Shown: positions 32,645-41,159 of the stretch, piece by piece | Layout: each line of letters begins with the position of its first letter | Numbering within the stretch: position 1 is the stretch's first letter | IMG/VR virus record: IMGVR_UViG_3300031565_014867 | Location: 1 to 64,000 of that record | Source: a virus | Strand: one strand, 5' to 3' | Length of the DNA: 64,000 nucleotides | Notes under the pieces: model-generated | Databases searched by the model: none | The model's input: only the letters and a program-made list of their open reading frames with translations | What the model was told of the DNA's origin: nothing | Program-made: the position numbers and the translations under genes

Positions 32645-33358
32645 CTACGAAGCCCGAAGCAGAACACGGCGGACGGCTGCCCGCGTGAACGGTTTCTTTG
32701 CCGTGGTGCGGTGGCCTTGCTCGTTGAGCCACTCGGCGATCTGTTGGAACGACTCGCCGGACACGCGCCGATCGCGGATCGCCGGCACGAGGAAGTCGTA
32801 GGCTTCTCGTGCTCGCTTGGATCGCTTCTCGGCGGCCACCTGTGTTGCCTTCGCTTGCCCTTTCGCCCGAAGGTGTTCCCGATCCTGCCAATGATCGCAA
32901 CGGGCTGAACCGAGCCGCACGCCACGGGCTTTGGCCGCTTTCAAGGCTGCCTTGGTCCGCGCACTGATGCGTTGGGCTTCGTCTTCGGCGACGGCTGCCA
33001 GGATGTGGATGGTCAGTCGATTGGCGTTTGGGTTGTCGCAGGCGACGAAGTCGACGCCGCTGTTCATCAGCCCGGCTGTAAAATGGACGTTGCGTGCCAG
33101 CCGATCCAACTTGGCAATAACGAGCGTGGCCCCCGAGAGCTTGGCGTGGGCGATCGCCTTGGCCAGTTCGGGTCGATCCGCGCGCTTGCCGGTTTCGACC
33201 TCGGTGTACTCGGCGAGAATCTCGCCATCGTTCCGACTGGCGAAACTCCATACTTCCGCTTGTTGGGCTTCCAGGCCGAGTCCGCTGCGGCCTTGCTTCC
33301 TGGTACTGACCCGGTAGTACGGGATGATCTCCTGTTTGCTCTTCTGTTGCGTTACCAT
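32645..33358 (-). CDS. Serine recombinase (resolvase/invertase size)
   Basis: 237 residues from ATG 33358, chosen for the GAGG site 5 nt upstream (a longer frame starts at TTG). The catalytic domain begins YYRVSTRKQGRSGLG with Ser18; ATLVIAKLDRLAR and VAEDEAQRISARTKAALK continue the family pattern. The C-terminal about 90 residues carry a DNA-binding helix-turn-helix-like part (FQQIAEWLNEQGHRTT). It is smaller than large serine integrases. It may integrate the phage, invert a segment or resolve multimers. It lies between the late promoter and the inserted cassette. Confidence 0.93.
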   Translation of the reverse strand: MVTQQKSKQEIIPYYRVSTRKQGRSGLGLEAQQAEVWSFASRNDGEILAEYTEVETGKRADRPELAKAIAHAKLSGATLVIAKLDRLARNVHFTAGLMNSGVDFVACDNPNANRLTIHILAAVAEDEAQRISARTKAALKAAKARGVRLGSARCDHWQDREHLRAKGQAKATQVAAEKRSKRAREAYDFLVPAIRDRRVSGESFQQIAEWLNEQGHRTTAKKPFTRAAVRRVLLRAS

Positions 33359-33504
33359 TTGTTCCTCGCGATGCGTCGTCAAGATGGTCCGTTTCCTTCA
33401 GCTTGCTCGATCCTCGGCTGAAGTCAAGTCGACATTATCAGGGCGAACGCTCGCTCAGAACTGCGCACCGCCTCACTGGTTCCCGAAGACGAGAGAATTC
33501 GGCG

Positions 33505-33732: not shown

Positions 33733-36700
33733 ATGAGTGCCGACACGTTTCCCTTCGAGATCCATTCCAACCTTGAACTGGGTGCCCTTCCTCCGCAATT
33801 GCGGGCGCTTAGCCGGTTCGTCGCCGAACGCTCAGAGACTGCCCACCCTTGGGGAAACCTTCATGTTACCTGGTCCAGTGACTGGTCAGATCTGACCCTT
33901 CTTGCGTACTTCGGGCAAGTGCTGCGACTATGCCAGAGGCGATTCGCCCAGGTCAACCTTCAACTGGATGGCCCGATGGTCAAGAAGATCCCGTTCTTGT
34001 GGAAGTGTGGGTTCTTTGACTGCGTGCGGGCCAACCGCGTCGGGAGCATTCTGGAATGCTTCCCGGATCCTTGGCGCCATCGCCCAGACACCGACCTCGT
34101 CCGCGCCAACTACACGCCTCTCGTCATGTTGGATGTCGCTCCAGTTGGCCAAGGTGACACCAAGCCCCAGTTCAGAGACCGTCAGGTGACCGACTGCATT
34201 AACGATTGGGACGTCGGTCTCCGTTCCACCGCATCTTTTCCTGTGGTGCGCAACGCCGATGCTATCCACTCGCGAGAGTATCTTTACTTGTTATTGTGGG
34301 AACTCCTGAATAATGCATACATCCACTCCGAAACTCATCATGTCACGCTCGCGGGGCAGATATTTTTGTCGCAAGAACACATCGCCGCCTTGAAGAACCT
34401 TGCCGATGATATCAGCAACGATTATCTGCTCCAATCCGCGGGCTCAGTCCCTTCGCTTCTCGACGCGTTGGCAGTGCAGCACAGAATCGAAGTACAACAC
34501 ACCCAGTTGACGGCTCGCCGTACCTGGTTGAAAAACCACAGAGATCGGTCTTTCCTGTTGCTTAGTTGCACCGATTCCGGAATGGGTATCCCGCAATCTC
34601 TGAAAAGGTCGGAGGTCGTCGCAGAGCAAGAAACCGATGGTCACGCGCTGGCGCGTGCCTTCAGTCCGTGGACATCGACGCGACGGAATGATCCTACTTT
34701 GTATGACGTTCACGGGTTGTCGCAGATCCTCCGACTCGTGGAAGAGTACGACGGATATTTGTTCCTGCAAAGTGGTGCCGCGTACCTAGAGTTCACGCGC
34801 ACTACGCCGTTGTCCGATGGACAACGACTCCCCGAAGAGAGGGTCCTAGACGGCTCGCTATTTCAAATCCTTCTACCTCTGAGCGCGGAGCCTGCCAGTC
34901 GGCCGGTTCGCAAGTGGATGGCGCCCGGCCACTCGCCGGGATCCCCGGAGCCCGCCGATCCCGAACACAGAAGTGTCTTCGTGGTCGGCGAACTACGGCG
35001 TGCCGGAATCGACGTTCCCGTACGAGAGGAGGACTGGACGCGAGCGGCCGACGTGGTGATCCGTTGTGCTGATGCGATCACTACCGATCCCCTATTTCTC
35101 GATCTTGTCCGGATGCCACACGATCACCAGTTCCTGAGTTTCCTTTTGCGAAGCGTCCGCCGCACCAGACTCTCGCACGGCGTTGTAGTGGTCAACGCGT
35201 CGCGTGAGTTTCTAGCGATTGCCAAGAACATGCAGAGGATCGATCTGGGTGACATCGCGGATGAACAAGTGAAGAGTTGCGCCGAACTAGATCGAGACTT
35301 GGCCCTGGCACTCAGCCGAGGAGAGATCGGGTGCTTGCCGCTGTTGCTGCCTTTCTTGGCACTCGCTGACGACGGAAGTCCCGCGGGTGTTCTGTGGCTT
35401 GGACTAGGTTGCTACGCACCGACACGGCGACGGGCAGTGGAAATCGCCTTGAACTATCTCCTGGGCTCGGAGGGAGCTGAGTTCAGTTGGAAAGAACTGT
35501 TTGAAATCGCTACTGCCCACGATCCAGTAGAAGGTCTTACCGAACAGGAATTTGGCTTACTCTTTGACGCTATCGTTCGCTGCAATCGGTCATTACTCGC
35601 CCCGGTTGCTGGCGGATGTCGCTCGGTGTTGACATCTTACGATGTGGAGTACGTTTCACTGGCCTCACTCCGAAAGGAAGTGGAAAACCTGATACCGCGG
35701 ATGGAACACCAAAAGGCTCGCGACCAGCAGGACTTCCTCTATAGTCTCGCCTGGCACCCGCCCGAGCGGCGTTTCCGTAAGCGCTACTATCGTACTTGGC
35801 CTGTGCTCGCGGATGAGCACTATCGTCACATCTGCGCGCGATTGCTCGTGCAACAAGCCTATGAGACTCTGGGAGACGTGGTTGCGGCGGCCCGCGCCGT
35901 CGTTTGCGCCACGCCCTCGGCAGGGCTGCTGGGACGAGAGGTCGCTGCGATTCTCGGTACGGCCTTCTACGAAGTCCCGAGCATTTATGAGATCGATCAT
36001 CGGGATTGGATCCCACGGCTCAACGGACCCGCGATTGTGGTCGACGACGTTCTCGACACTGGTACACTTACACAGCAGTTGGTGCAGTACCTACAAAAGG
36101 TCGGGGCACACTGTCCCTGTGTCCTCACACTCCTGGAAAACGCGGAAACAGCGCAAGAAAGGCCCAGCCTGCCCCTCGTTCTGAAGGGGAGTGCCATCGA
36201 CCTCGGTATTCCGACGACGGAAGAAGTGGCAAGGGCTATCGAGTCTCAAGGCTACTTTGAGGTCGATCCGCACACACTCGACCCGCTTCCTCCCAGAACC
36301 TCGGCTCGTGATTCCCTGTCCAGGGAAACGCGCCGGCGCCTCGAAACGCTGGCGCATGAAAAGGCCATCTTCAGCGGGCATATCGTGCATGGAGACCACC
36401 ACTACAACATGTACTTCAGCCTGCGCGATGCTCTCGCGTCACCGACAGCGCGCGATGAAATCCTGACATGGGTGCTCGACGAGATCCGCGCGTTTGCCCG
36501 ACAAGCACAGAAGCAAGGGGCTCACGCGATTACGCTCGTATATCCGTACTACTCGCCCGTCTACAGACTAGTCTCGCGAATACTCGCTCGTTGGTACCAA
36601 GAAGCCGCAGTTGGCGTCGAACTTCGCTGCCTGGTGGCCAAGCCATGCCAATTGAGTGGAACTCGCATCGGGTATCAACTGGCCGATGTAACAAACCGCG

Positions 36701-38541
36701 GGACGCGCGACCTAGAACATGCCGTGTTCTTGGATGACGGCATTGCCTCCGGTGGCACCATGTCGGCGGTCCTGGACGAATTGGTTTCGCGCAACGCACG
36801 CGCCGTCGTGGCTCTAATACTATTTGACCGAATCGGCCTTCAGCCGCGACGCCATCTGCGCAGTATCCGCTCATACCGTACGCCAAACGGCCGCTCCCTG
36901 TCGTTTTCGTTTCGCACTCTTGTTTCGATAAACGTGCGGTCGCACTATGTCAACAACTGCCCTGAGTGCCTGTTGGCTCGGGACATACTCGGACATGCTC
37001 GTTTGCACCCGGGCTTCCTTTCTACTGGAACGGCGACTCTCGAATCTCTCCTGGCGAGGACCATTGTGAGTTCTGAAAGTGTCCATATAGCCTCCCGGCT
37101 CGGGGCTGAGGATGTTCTTTCCGTACTCAGTTTCCGGCACGCGGTTCTCTCGGACATGCCAAGCCCCCAAGAGATCGAAAGGAGCTTGGCTGGCCGTGCA
37201 GGCGCTCCCCGGCTAGAGTGCCTCGCGACCGTGTTGTCCGATCCCAAGCTGTTCCGGCAGATCACGGATCACGAGGCCTGTGAGCGATGGATGACCGAGG
37301 ACATCGCCGACCCATCTGTGGCTCCTGACTTCCGTGCCCGCTTTGTCCTTCACTTGGGCGCATGTGCTGACAGGAGCTTCGCGCGGGGATACGTTACGGA
37401 AGGTCTTCCTCAAGCCTACATTCGTTTGGCTGGCCGGCCGGAAGCCAAGTGTGACGGCTCGCTCAACCGTTACTTCAATGCGCACCCGATCGAATTCCTT
37501 GCGGTGGCGGCGGCCCTCTACTCGCTTGCTGACCGAGTTGGCCGCGACAAAGAGGCACCAGTAGCATGTCTACAAGGATGGAAGACAGCGCTAGGTTCTG
37601 GCTCGGAGATGAATACCGAGGCCAATCTCTATACGTTCCATTTGGAAACCCTATTTGATCCAGAATCTGAACTCCCCGTGAAAGAGGCGGAGCACTTGGT
37701 CGCGAACTTTGCCGGCAGTTTCTCGCACCACGGTGACAGCTTCGCCGTGCGCATGTCGCGTTGCCGATTGGCAGTGAATACCCATCTCGCTGGCGTTGCC
37801 TGCGAGCAGATGCCACCGGAAATGTTCAGCGTTCTAACCGATATGGTCAGACGCACGCAGGACCACTTCAAGGTCTGGCCGTTCGGAAAGGACGAACGAG
37901 ACGAGATAAGGGAGGCTGAGGCGCGATGGCAGGAGGATCGCGATGGCACCATCTTGGCAACGGTCATCAGCCGCCATTTTCTCTCGGAAATGCCTGCCAC
38001 ACGCCCGGCAACAATTGACCGACTCCTCGCCCACCTTGCACCACGCTTGGGTTACATCCTTGGTAAGGCCATCGCCGATTACCGTACCCGCACACGGGCA
38101 CCTGTTAATGTGCATAATGAGTTCGAATCCAACACATCAGAAGACAGCCGCGTACTCGGCACCTCCTTCTATTTGTGGAGGGTGTTGTCGAACCTGCTCG
38201 ATAATGCACAGGAAGCGTGGAACAGGCGCCGCGGAGAGGAGAGCGGCGCCCCGACGCCCGACTTGGCAGTGCGGATACTTGTGCGCCCCGTGCCGCCCCA
38301 CCGGCTCGCCATTGAAGTCCGAGACAACGTCCCCTGCGAAGATCAAGACGTTGAGGGGTTCTTTGTGCCTGGCAGTGCATTGGCCACGCACCGGTCTGAG
38401 ATCGTGAACTGGGGTGGGGCTTTACGGGGAGACAAACTTCCCAACGGTTGGAAACGTATTGTGGTAGAACTGAGAACGCTCGACGTTGAGCGCCCATTGC
38501 AGGACCCTGAAGATGAGAATCCCCAAGCTGCTTCTATGTGA
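33733..38541 (+). CDS. GHKL - phosphoribosyltransferase - phosphoribosyltransferase - GHKL protein
   Basis: 1602 residues. In order: a GHKL ATPase region near residues 185-370 (WELLNNAYIHS as N-box at about 189, CTDSGMGIP as G1 at about 279, then YDVHGLSQILRLVEEYDG); a phosphoribosyltransferase PRPP loop VVDDVLDTGTL near 769; a second PRPP loop FLDDGIASGGT near 998; a CPEC knuckle near 1075; and a C-terminal kinase-like GHKL region (NLLDNAQEAW near 1487, weaker G1 EVRDNVP near 1528). No clear phospho-acceptor His was found. It is co-translated with the receiver-HD protein. In-frame TAG at 33712 fixes the start region. The combination is unfamiliar; a signalling or anti-phage role is inference. 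Confidence 0.85.
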   Translation: MSADTFPFEIHSNLELGALPPQLRALSRFVAERSETAHPWGNLHVTWSSDWSDLTLLAYFGQVLRLCQRRFAQVNLQLDGPMVKKIPFLWKCGFFDCVRANRVGSILECFPDPWRHRPDTDLVRANYTPLVMLDVAPVGQGDTKPQFRDRQVTDCINDWDVGLRSTASFPVVRNADAIHSREYLYLLLWELLNNAYIHSETHHVTLAGQIFLSQEHIAALKNLADDISNDYLLQSAGSVPSLLDALAVQHRIEVQHTQLTARRTWLKNHRDRSFLLLSCTDSGMGIPQSLKRSEVVAEQETDGHALARAFSPWTSTRRNDPTLYDVHGLSQILRLVEEYDGYLFLQSGAAYLEFTRTTPLSDGQRLPEERVLDGSLFQILLPLSAEPASRPVRKWMAPGHSPGSPEPADPEHRSVFVVGELRRAGIDVPVREEDWTRAADVVIRCADAITTDPLFLDLVRMPHDHQFLSFLLRSVRRTRLSHGVVVVNASREFLAIAKNMQRIDLGDIADEQVKSCAELDRDLALALSRGEIGCLPLLLPFLALADDGSPAGVLWLGLGCYAPTRRRAVEIALNYLLGSEGAEFSWKELFEIATAHDPVEGLTEQEFGLLFDAIVRCNRSLLAPVAGGCRSVLTSYDVEYVSLASLRKEVENLIPRMEHQKARDQQDFLYSLAWHPPERRFRKRYYRTWPVLADEHYRHICARLLVQQAYETLGDVVAAARAVVCATPSAGLLGREVAAILGTAFYEVPSIYEIDHRDWIPRLNGPAIVVDDVLDTGTLTQQLVQYLQKVGAHCPCVLTLLENAETAQERPSLPLVLKGSAIDLGIPTTEEVARAIESQGYFEVDPHTLDPLPPRTSARDSLSRETRRRLETLAHEKAIFSGHIVHGDHHYNMYFSLRDALASPTARDEILTWVLDEIRAFARQAQKQGAHAITLVYPYYSPVYRLVSRILARWYQEAAVGVELRCLVAKPCQLSGTRIGYQLADVTNRGTRDLEHAVFLDDGIASGGTMSAVLDELVSRNARAVVALILFDRIGLQPRRHLRSIRSYRTPNGRSLSFSFRTLVSINVRSHYVNNCPECLLARDILGHARLHPGFLSTGTATLESLLARTIVSSESVHIASRLGAEDVLSVLSFRHAVLSDMPSPQEIERSLAGRAGAPRLECLATVLSDPKLFRQITDHEACERWMTEDIADPSVAPDFRARFVLHLGACADRSFARGYVTEGLPQAYIRLAGRPEAKCDGSLNRYFNAHPIEFLAVAAALYSLADRVGRDKEAPVACLQGWKTALGSGSEMNTEANLYTFHLETLFDPESELPVKEAEHLVANFAGSFSHHGDSFAVRMSRCRLAVNTHLAGVACEQMPPEMFSVLTDMVRRTQDHFKVWPFGKDERDEIREAEARWQEDRDGTILATVISRHFLSEMPATRPATIDRLLAHLAPRLGYILGKAIADYRTRTRAPVNVHNEFESNTSEDSRVLGTSFYLWRVLSNLLDNAQEAWNRRRGEESGAPTPDLAVRILVRPVPPHRLAIEVRDNVPCEDQDVEGFFVPGSALATHRSEIVNWGGALRGDKLPNGWKRIVVELRTLDVERPLQDPEDENPQAASM

Positions 38542-40156
38542 GGACGATATCTGGGAACGTGAAAACCTTCCAGGGATCATCGAGTCCTCTTGGAAGGACA
38601 TGTTTGCCGGTGAACAAGTCGAGGTCCACGGTTGCTCCGATGTTGCCCGCGAGGACCGGCCACGTCCCCCGATTATTCCCCTTGACAAAGTCGGACAATA
38701 CGATGCTCTTCTGCTCGATATTTGGTGGGGAAAACCCAGTTCCGGGTCACCTCATGGCGTCGAGATTGCCGAGACAGTACGTCGGCGCTATCCGGAAATG
38801 CCAATTATCGTGTTCTCACGACACGTCTCGCTTGAAGACTTTCAATCTCTGATACCTCACGGCATCGCAGGATATCTGACCAAAACCGATCCCACGGCCC
38901 AAACCTGGTGTGCCGAAATCCACCGCGTCTTGGAAACCACTGGCCGCGAACGTTCCGGTCACCCTCTGTATCAACTCCTCAGGCATCTGCTAGCTGAAAC
39001 CCCCAACGCCTGGTGTCGGAATGAGGTCGACCAAGCTGCCTCTGAAGTCTGGCGTCATGAGAACCCTTATCAGAAATGGGAACAGTTTTGGGGAGTGTGG
39101 GTGCCGTATTTGGGGCAAAAACGCATCAACATCCCCTGCGACGACATCGCTCGGTTCTTTGCCAAGGAAGAACTCCTAACGATCTCTGTAGGCGAAGCCT
39201 TGCGCGGACATCTGGAACATGTCTTGCATGTGTATTTCACCGGGTACATTATAAGCCATGTCGCACCGGGGTTTCGCGATCATGTACTGAACGCCGTTCG
39301 CTATCTTCTAAAGGAAGATTATCGCGAGGACCAGACGGAAGCCTATTGGGACATGTTCCAAGCAAGTTGGCTCGTCGCCGCCACGCTGCACGACGCCGCC
39401 TATCCGCTAGAGATTCTCCCTGACGTCGTGCATGAAGCATCCCAGATTCAAGACATGTTTCCCTTTGCGCAACTCACTCCCACCGTTCCGTCTGTGGCTC
39501 CTTCGGGCGTAGCGTGGAACAGTACGGAGGGGCGAGCGGCACGGGATGCGTTTCGTTTTGTTCTTGACCGCCTCTACGACAATACGAGTGCCCTCCGCTT
39601 TGTGCAAGCGAACGCATTGTTCTCCGACGGGAAGGTACAGCGGTTCAACCATGGTGTCGCTTCTGGCGCATGCTTCATGAAGGAAGCTCAAAAATGGGGT
39701 GACCTTCCCAATTCGCTGCCATTGGTGTTCCTTCAATGGGCCGCCACAGCCATGGCCCTCCATGCCTTGAAACATGCTGCGGAGCCAAACGGCGTGTGCA
39801 TTGCTCTCCAGCGAGATCCTTTGTCGTTCCTGTTGGCTTTGTGTGACGAGTTGCAGGTGTGGAATCGCAGTCGTCCCGATGAGACACCAACGTCATCAGA
39901 TTTCCGTCGCGTCGATTTGCACGCAATGGAATTTGACGGCAACAAGCTCTCTGCCACCATTGAATACGATTTGTTTCCACTGGTTGATACACATCGACAG
40001 AAGAAGGCTGTAAATGCGATCACAAGCCGTCTCAGCAAAGACCAGCGTTTAATGAAGATCTATCTTAAGCCGGAACCACTAGGAGTAGAGATTCTGAGCC
40101 GGATACGGGATCCATTCACCGAACTGCCGCCGATCCTGCTGGGCGATGCTGATTGA
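38513..40156 (+). CDS. Receiver (REC) - HD domain protein
   Basis: 547 residues from ATG 38513, overlapping the previous gene by 29 nt, so translation is probably coupled. Residues 1-130 read as a receiver domain: LLLCEDD (acidic pair at 11-12), YDALLLDIWWG (phospho-acceptor Asp near 69), IIVFSRH and GYLTKTD (Lys near 125). The C-terminal region is HD-like: GFRDHVLNAVRYLL near 252, AATLHDAAYPLE with His293-Asp294, and LLALCDELQVW near 445, a pattern shared by HD phosphohydrolases. An output cutting or hydrolysing nucleotides, switched by phosphorylation, is the natural hypothesis. Confidence 0.82.
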   Translation: MRIPKLLLCEDDIWERENLPGIIESSWKDMFAGEQVEVHGCSDVAREDRPRPPIIPLDKVGQYDALLLDIWWGKPSSGSPHGVEIAETVRRRYPEMPIIVFSRHVSLEDFQSLIPHGIAGYLTKTDPTAQTWCAEIHRVLETTGRERSGHPLYQLLRHLLAETPNAWCRNEVDQAASEVWRHENPYQKWEQFWGVWVPYLGQKRINIPCDDIARFFAKEELLTISVGEALRGHLEHVLHVYFTGYIISHVAPGFRDHVLNAVRYLLKEDYREDQTEAYWDMFQASWLVAATLHDAAYPLEILPDVVHEASQIQDMFPFAQLTPTVPSVAPSGVAWNSTEGRAARDAFRFVLDRLYDNTSALRFVQANALFSDGKVQRFNHGVASGACFMKEAQKWGDLPNSLPLVFLQWAATAMALHALKHAAEPNGVCIALQRDPLSFLLALCDELQVWNRSRPDETPTSSDFRRVDLHAMEFDGNKLSATIEYDLFPLVDTHRQKKAVNAITSRLSKDQRLMKIYLKPEPLGVEILSRIRDPFTELPPILLGDAD

Positions 40157-41044: not shown

Positions 41045-41159
41045 GAATGATTACTTCTCTGGTTTGCCCTATTTACTCATATATTTATTGTGTGTGTACA
41101 CAGTATGTAGAAGTGTTTGCATAAAGCGATAATAGGTGAAACTAGAGAAGTAATCATTC
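41045..41159. repeat. 21-bp inverted repeat flanking an AT-rich 73-bp core
   Basis: Arm 1 (41045-41065) starts GAATGATTACTTCTCT; arm 2 (41139-41159) is its reverse complement with one mismatch. The core 41066-41138 is AT-rich in a GC-rich region and holds TGTGTACACA, a 10-bp palindrome. This resembles an origin-like or operator-like site; function not shown. Confidence 0.7.

Follow-up and report, generated by a model that had tools for sequence, protein, structure and literature searches.

Phosphoribosyltransferase (PRTase) domains and HD phosphohydrolases both have precedents in described defence systems. A DprA-PRTase defence system is found in cargo hotspots of P2-like phages (PMC9122126), type III retrons use PRTase effectors (PMC12548924), and Clover combines an HD dGTPase effector, CloA, with the nucleotidyltransferase CloB (PMC12265719). 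Here we analyse two overlapping genes of virus record IMGVR_UViG_3300031565_014867 (81,782 bases in IMG/VR), which lie within bases 1-64000 of the record, the whole stretch analysed and hereafter called the window. The first gene encodes a protein of 1602 aa, termed the sensor, in which two PRTases are placed between two probable GHKL ATPase regions; the second encodes a receiver (REC) domain fused to a predicted HD phosphohydrolase, termed the effector. We lean towards the view that the pair is a two-gene conflict module of the abortive-infection type, most likely directed against phages or other mobile elements and carried by the phage as cargo.

The pair shares with the DprA-PRTase system and type III retrons the presence of PRTase domains in a phage-borne or mobile defence context. 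In those systems, however, the effector role is ascribed to the PRTase, whereas here two PRTases are found inside the putative sensor, and neither a DprA nor a reverse transcriptase domain was found in the two-gene island. The likeness to Clover and to anti-phage dGTPases lies in an HD phosphohydrolase effector under the control of a partner. Unlike in Clover, this control would run via a fused REC domain and a GHKL/PRTase sensor, and domain scans found no CloB-type nucleotidyltransferase domain in the window sensor. Two-component systems resemble the pair in having an intact REC domain in the second protein and apparently coupled genes, and probably also in the HATPase_c-like domain of the first protein. 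They differ from it in three respects: the window sensor has no recognisable DHp domain or H-box; it looks soluble and carries tandem PRTases and a probable second GHKL region; and the output, in the window and in its relative described below, is an HD enzyme or a nuclease rather than a transcription factor. For predicted defence proteins of DefensePredictor, the legend of Fig. 6F names HATPase and REC domains (PMC13092281), a likeness drawn from the legend text alone. The combination is undescribed in the literature searched, whose coverage left out most subscription papers.

Domain organization of the two proteins

Both open reading frames are on the + strand and start with ATG (Table 1), in agreement with the first-pass annotation of this DNA, which had described two + strand genes overlapping by 29 nt with a first product of 1602 residues. 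An alternative upstream TTG start would extend the effector to 556 aa. The overlap suggests that the sensor and effector genes are translationally coupled. The possibility that the frames are chance occurrences was rejected, given the 1602 codons, the domain matches and a collinear homologue.

Profile and homologue comparisons establish two predicted PRTases in the large protein. Pfam PF00156 matched the whole protein in two stretches (E = 2.1e-6), and the separated halves only at E = 0.036 and 5e-4. The assignment is nevertheless firm, because a distant homologue matches PF00156 at E = 1.7e-9 and aligns with the window protein across both PRTases (BLASTP E = 1e-12). Both loops for phosphoribosyl pyrophosphate (PRPP) are intact in the window protein, with the acidic pairs D771-D772 and D1001-D1002, in keeping with a type I PRTase fold. 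In profile searches PRTase 1 was nearest to PyrE/HGPRT-type enzymes, and PRTase 2 terminates in an NNCPxC motif (36952-36969) that is also present in the distant homologue. Membership of the PRTase-CE family (PF24390) was rejected, as the match reached 12.3-14.6 bits over ~40 residues against a curated cut-off of 27 bits; a Ter-type PRTase system was likewise rejected, there being no Ter domains in either protein.

The two GHKL regions are probable. The N-terminal one matches PHROG 3364 (E = 6e-8) and has an N-box, WELLNNA (residues 189-195), a G1 motif, DSGMGI (281-286), and a G2-like motif, HGLS (327-330), while in the C-terminal one the DxGxG motif is incomplete. HATPase_c matched the whole large protein at E = 1.2e-5 and 26.2 bits, 0.2 bits below the curated cut-off of 26.4. 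When the pieces were searched separately, the matches were weak in each case (E = 0.02 for the N-terminal and 0.011 for the C-terminal piece). Thus, of the two GHKL regions and two PRPP-loop PRTases proposed earlier, the PRTases stand and the GHKL pair is likely. No HisKA-type Pfam match was obtained with the large protein, and no DHp domain or H-box could be recognised in it. H1378 is located 113 residues ahead of the Asn of the C-terminal N-box, a spacing typical of histidine kinases, but its flanking sequence is not a recognisable H-box.

The second protein agrees with the earlier description of a receiver fused to an HD-like domain. Its REC pocket is complete, with the acidic pair D11/D12, the phospho-acceptor D69, S102 and K124, and Foldseek returned many solved receiver domains for it at a probability of ~1.0, with E-values all above 0.001. 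Structure prediction had been recommended. AlphaFold modelled the small protein with moderate confidence (mean pLDDT 60) and its helical HD core at 80-91; the model of the tandem PRTases, for which no alignment was supplied, was of unusable quality (pLDDT 40) and gave weak HGPRT/PyrR matches only.

A distant operon with a different effector

Among 392 Planctomycetota genomes searched with the large protein, one contained a match, the 8.1-kb contig G258:C84, whose operon lies on one strand and has ~22% identity to the window pair. In order, its genes are a GHKL-PRTase-PRTase frame of 1050 aa that runs off the contig end, a pair of transposition genes of the IS66/DruA type, a frame of 246 aa and, after a gap of 1 nt, a REC-nuclease of 295 aa. 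The two large proteins are collinear, the BLASTP alignment extending across the GHKL region and linker (E = 3e-5) in addition to the PRTases. The homologue has the same domain order, keeps both PRPP loops and NNCPxC, and conserves the G1 and GLS motifs of the N-terminal GHKL, for which the local alignment score was 59, compared with 51 for the best of 500 shuffles. In its PRTase 1, TD replaces DD in the PRPP loop, a change that suggests ligand sensing no less than catalysis.

The conserved pairing with a REC protein, for which a homologue search had been advised, is present in this one distant operon. D11, D12, D69 and K124 of the window REC are identical in the REC-nuclease and S102 is kept as S/T; the alignment of the two REC regions scored narrowly above all 500 shuffles. 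The REC-nuclease matches PF00072 (E = 3.2e-5) and, in place of an HD domain, the DpnII/MboI restriction endonuclease (REase) family PF18742 (E = 7.5e-31). Among PADLOC models it matches Aga_Helical-REase (E = 3e-29), a kind of nuclease that serves as an effector in other systems. As judged from sequence, the sensor order and the REC pairing are kept across two very distant loci, and the enzyme attached to REC differs. One sensor/REC chassis with different outputs would be a pattern typical of conflict systems, and we therefore take the domain fused to REC to be a switched effector.

Apart from its effector and low identity, the planctomycete operon differs from the window pair by the IS66-type interruption and by a C-terminal GHKL that is not demonstrable. 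The 246-aa frame may be the remainder of a GHKL-containing protein; since it does not align with the C-terminus of the window protein, its GHKL nature is a guess from motifs. It has a His 98 residues before a putative N-box. The inserted genes (L213:2563-4801) encode an IS66-family transposase and a DruA-family (PF14236) protein. Other planctomycete DpnII/MboI REases (in G150, G224 and G100) were rejected as members, having different N-termini and no adjoining sensor gene.

The HD domain and its clade

A Pfam scan gave no HD match in the window small protein itself, and a profile search gave no convincing match to a solved structure for its HD domain. We gathered related proteins by scanning GTDB genomes with a degenerate DNA pattern derived from PLxxLLxxxDELQxW. 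At least 120 matches were found, and 116 of those listed had open frames of at least 300 aa; the frames are HD proteins (~115 among the matches listed) except for a few false positives. Pfam recognises HD in 12 of 46 aligned clade members (PF01966, best E = 1.3e-8). Twelve residues are nearly invariant in the alignment with the window protein (R231, H233, H236, H293, D294, H380, H417, D445, E446, Q448, W450 and R452). As the metal ligands of the window protein are identical to near-invariant residues of the clade, the HD active site is complete, and the domain is a predicted HD phosphohydrolase with a full metal-site set.

The clade is widespread, with members fused to RyR and apparently to NACHT. 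Clade members with other sensor or regulatory domains share identical metal-site residues with the window protein. They comprise HD-RyR proteins of Clostridia and Methanobrevibacter, an HD-NACHT-FGE-like protein (L209) and a REC-like-HD protein (L117). No GHKL-PRTase partner was found beside these relatives, the L117 contig ending just upstream. HD proteins of ~700 aa are very common in Clostridia/Methanobrevibacter loci (L092-L211, including L108), and their family has, to our knowledge, no described function. The L108 protein carries a RyR domain (PF02026, E = 4e-19). In L209:4020-8000 an HD domain of the same clade is N-terminal and is followed by NACHT-looking and FGE/SUMF1-like regions, read by eye. 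L117:1-2917, on an Acidobacteriota metagenome-assembled contig (JAUPLE010000848.1), encodes a REC-like + HD protein with the layout of the window effector. Its gene overlaps a REC-only gene, which is followed by one whose product weakly matches HEPN-Swt1 (E = 0.05); the locus is possibly another REC-wired conflict cassette.

Distribution of the pair

No second relative was found in about 1,300 genomes (398 Pseudomonadota, 297 Acidobacteriota, 201 Chloroflexota and 392 Planctomycetota), plasmids, phages and IMG/VR. Tblastn of plasmids and phages with the large protein, or with the distant homologue (L212), gave nothing, and the small protein gave only short matches in the REC range there (best E = 0.02). 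Scans of IMG/VR with the large protein, the small protein, alignment A2, L212 and the HD motif returned no relative, nor did a scan of genome contigs with the large protein. The A2 profile, run on the genomes of the other three phyla and repeated on a same-sized draw of 392 Planctomycetota, found besides G258 only stand-alone frames of 110-580 aa matching the PRTase 1 region, mostly ~200 aa and pyrE/HGPRT-like. The distribution is rare and patchy (one of the 392 planctomycetes sampled), although the reach of such searches is limited at ~20% identity and the family may therefore have more members. Neither protein is covered as a whole by any model of Pfam, NCBIfam, PADLOC or PHROGs.

Genomic setting

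Large terminase, portal and tape-measure families in the window confirm the phage setting. The GC content of the island is 0.54-0.59, versus 0.58-0.65 in the left flank and 0.58-0.62 in the right flank. The island starts ~350 bp from a serine recombinase gene on the opposite strand. Genes to its left and those at 41.4-56.9 kb run leftward. The rightward, lower-GC island beside a serine recombinase, as first described, is borne out by these data and by PF00239, and so is the leftward course of its neighbours, except for some genes at 57-62 kb that run rightward. The moron-like accessory setting proposed for the pair is likewise supported.

Related phages were taken from IMG/VR by terminase kinship. 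The large protein was not found in the 14 such records searched, several of which are fragments. In one related phage, G001, a type IIG MmeI-like restriction-modification gene adjoins the homologous recombinase (PADLOC E = 1.2e-274). The early genes of G001 are inverted relative to those of the window, and we therefore claim only a cargo-prone neighbourhood and not an orthologous site. Relative to the terminase, its early-region homologues (L013 and L083) run opposite to those of the window, and this inversion between related phages lies close to an invertase-like recombinase. The MmeI-like restriction-methyltransferase gene of G001 occupies L083:9246-11357 and is possibly truncated at its C-terminus.

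Proposed mechanism and alternative explanations

In the scheme that we propose, the large protein would sense infection or a disturbed nucleotide/PRPP pool, the PRTases acting as ligand sensors and/or enzymes and the GHKL domains binding ATP. The triggered sensor would then switch the REC domain of its partner, either through phosphotransfer to D69 or through direct contact, and REC would free the fused output domain. In the window this output would be a metal-dependent HD phosphohydrolase, most likely destroying nucleotides; in the planctomycete version it would be the DpnII/MboI-like nuclease.

Besides the exchange of effectors, several observations argue for a conflict module. They are the intact REC pocket and HD ligands; the RyR, REC-like and apparent NACHT fusions of the HD clade; the lower-GC island in opposite orientation beside a recombinase, together with the MmeI-like cargo of G001; and the defence precedents for PRTases and HD dGTPases (PMC9122126, PMC12548924, PMC12265719). 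Other points weigh against this interpretation. PADLOC-DB 2.0.0 gave no significant match for either protein, the only hit being DpdF at E = 0.053 over 40 aa. Each GHKL assignment is weak when taken singly, and no recognisable phospho-acceptor histidine was found. The comparison rests on a single homologous operon, which is interrupted by an IS66-type insertion and whose 246-aa piece, which we take for the second GHKL, failed to align with the window C-terminus in a shuffle test. The G001 cargo site, finally, is not strictly syntenic with that of the window.

A host-derived accessory regulatory pair with no defence role, for instance one tuning nucleotide pools under stress via a receiver-controlled HD enzyme, would be built from just such ordinary signalling parts as REC-HD and GHKL, and neither protein has a defence annotation. 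We nevertheless consider it unlikely, in view of the rare and patchy distribution, the different effector of the relative, its nuclease output and the mobile setting. We give little credence to a phage counter-defence or host-takeover module, which the infecting phage would produce in order to remodel the nucleotide pools of its host or destroy nucleotide immune signals of the host. The pair does sit in a phage record by the early region, PRTase and HD chemistry both target nucleotides, and hydrolases of nucleotide signals are known from phages. However, the relative resides in a planctomycete genome assembly and has a nuclease of the restriction type instead of HD, a poor fit to signal clearing, and no such module was found in the related phages sampled, many of them fragmentary. 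Least probable is the version of the first-pass annotation, in which the signal is a phosphoribosylated nucleotide made by the sensor and REC-HD hydrolyses a nucleotide in response or ends the signal: both PRPP loops and the HD site are intact in the window proteins, and the HD clade includes fusions to RyR domains, which others have proposed to bind nucleotide ligands, but the homologue lacks one acidic residue in its PRTase 1 loop, and the replacement of HD by a nuclease in the distant operon makes the REC-fused domain look like a general output and not a dedicated hydrolase of the sensor product. The broader label of a candidate new signalling/defence system fares better, as the distant operon keeps the layout of sensor and REC-effector with a different effector.

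Going beyond the conflict module itself, we tentatively suggest a new class of defence signalling, in which a soluble GHKL-PRTase-PRTase-GHKL receptor of the PRPP/nucleotide state fires exchangeable suicide effectors via receivers, with a phosphorelay as the wiring of abortive infection. If so, the system would join two-component signalling with abortive infection, two fields that seldom meet; the receiver would be the plug that lets one receptor fire different killing enzymes; and the tandem PRTases would be infection sensors rather than effectors. Whether REC can gate a lethal effector could then be addressed by changing a handful of residues (D69, H293/D294, D772 and D1001).

Features of the locus

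Table 1. Positions of the two genes, their domains and the bordering recombinase in the window
Feature	Coordinates	Strand	Basis
Sensor gene, 1602 aa: N-terminal region of unknown fold, GHKL, linker, PRTase, PRTase, alpha-rich region, GHKL	33733..38541	+	
N-terminal GHKL ATPase-like region (probable)	34279..34812	+	PHROG 3364, HATPase_c, motifs
PRTase domain 1	35800..36312	+	PRPP loop VVDDVLDTGT at 36037-36072; PF00156
PRTase domain 2	36355..37002	+	PRPP loop FLDDGIASGGT at 36727-36759; PF00156
C-terminal GHKL/HATPase_c-like region (probable)	38173..38472	+	NLLDNA box at 38191-38208; degenerate G1
Gene overlap, 29 nt	38513..38541	+	Open reading frame coordinates
Effector gene, 547 aa: REC, helical linker, HD	38513..40156	+	
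Receiver (REC) domain	38513..38947	+	PF00072, E = 3e-6
HD phosphohydrolase-like domain	39158..39868	+	Metal-site set R231, H233/H236, H293-D294, H380, H417, D445; signature PLxxLLxxCDELQxWxR
Serine recombinase (resolvase/invertase type), bordering the cargo site, outside the two-gene system	32645..33382	-	PF00239, E = 1.7e-25

At window positions 41045-41159, past the island and ahead of the early operon, we noted a 29-nt inverted repeat, 90% complementary, with an AT-rich spacer of 57 nt. It could be an origin, a regulatory site or a recombination site.

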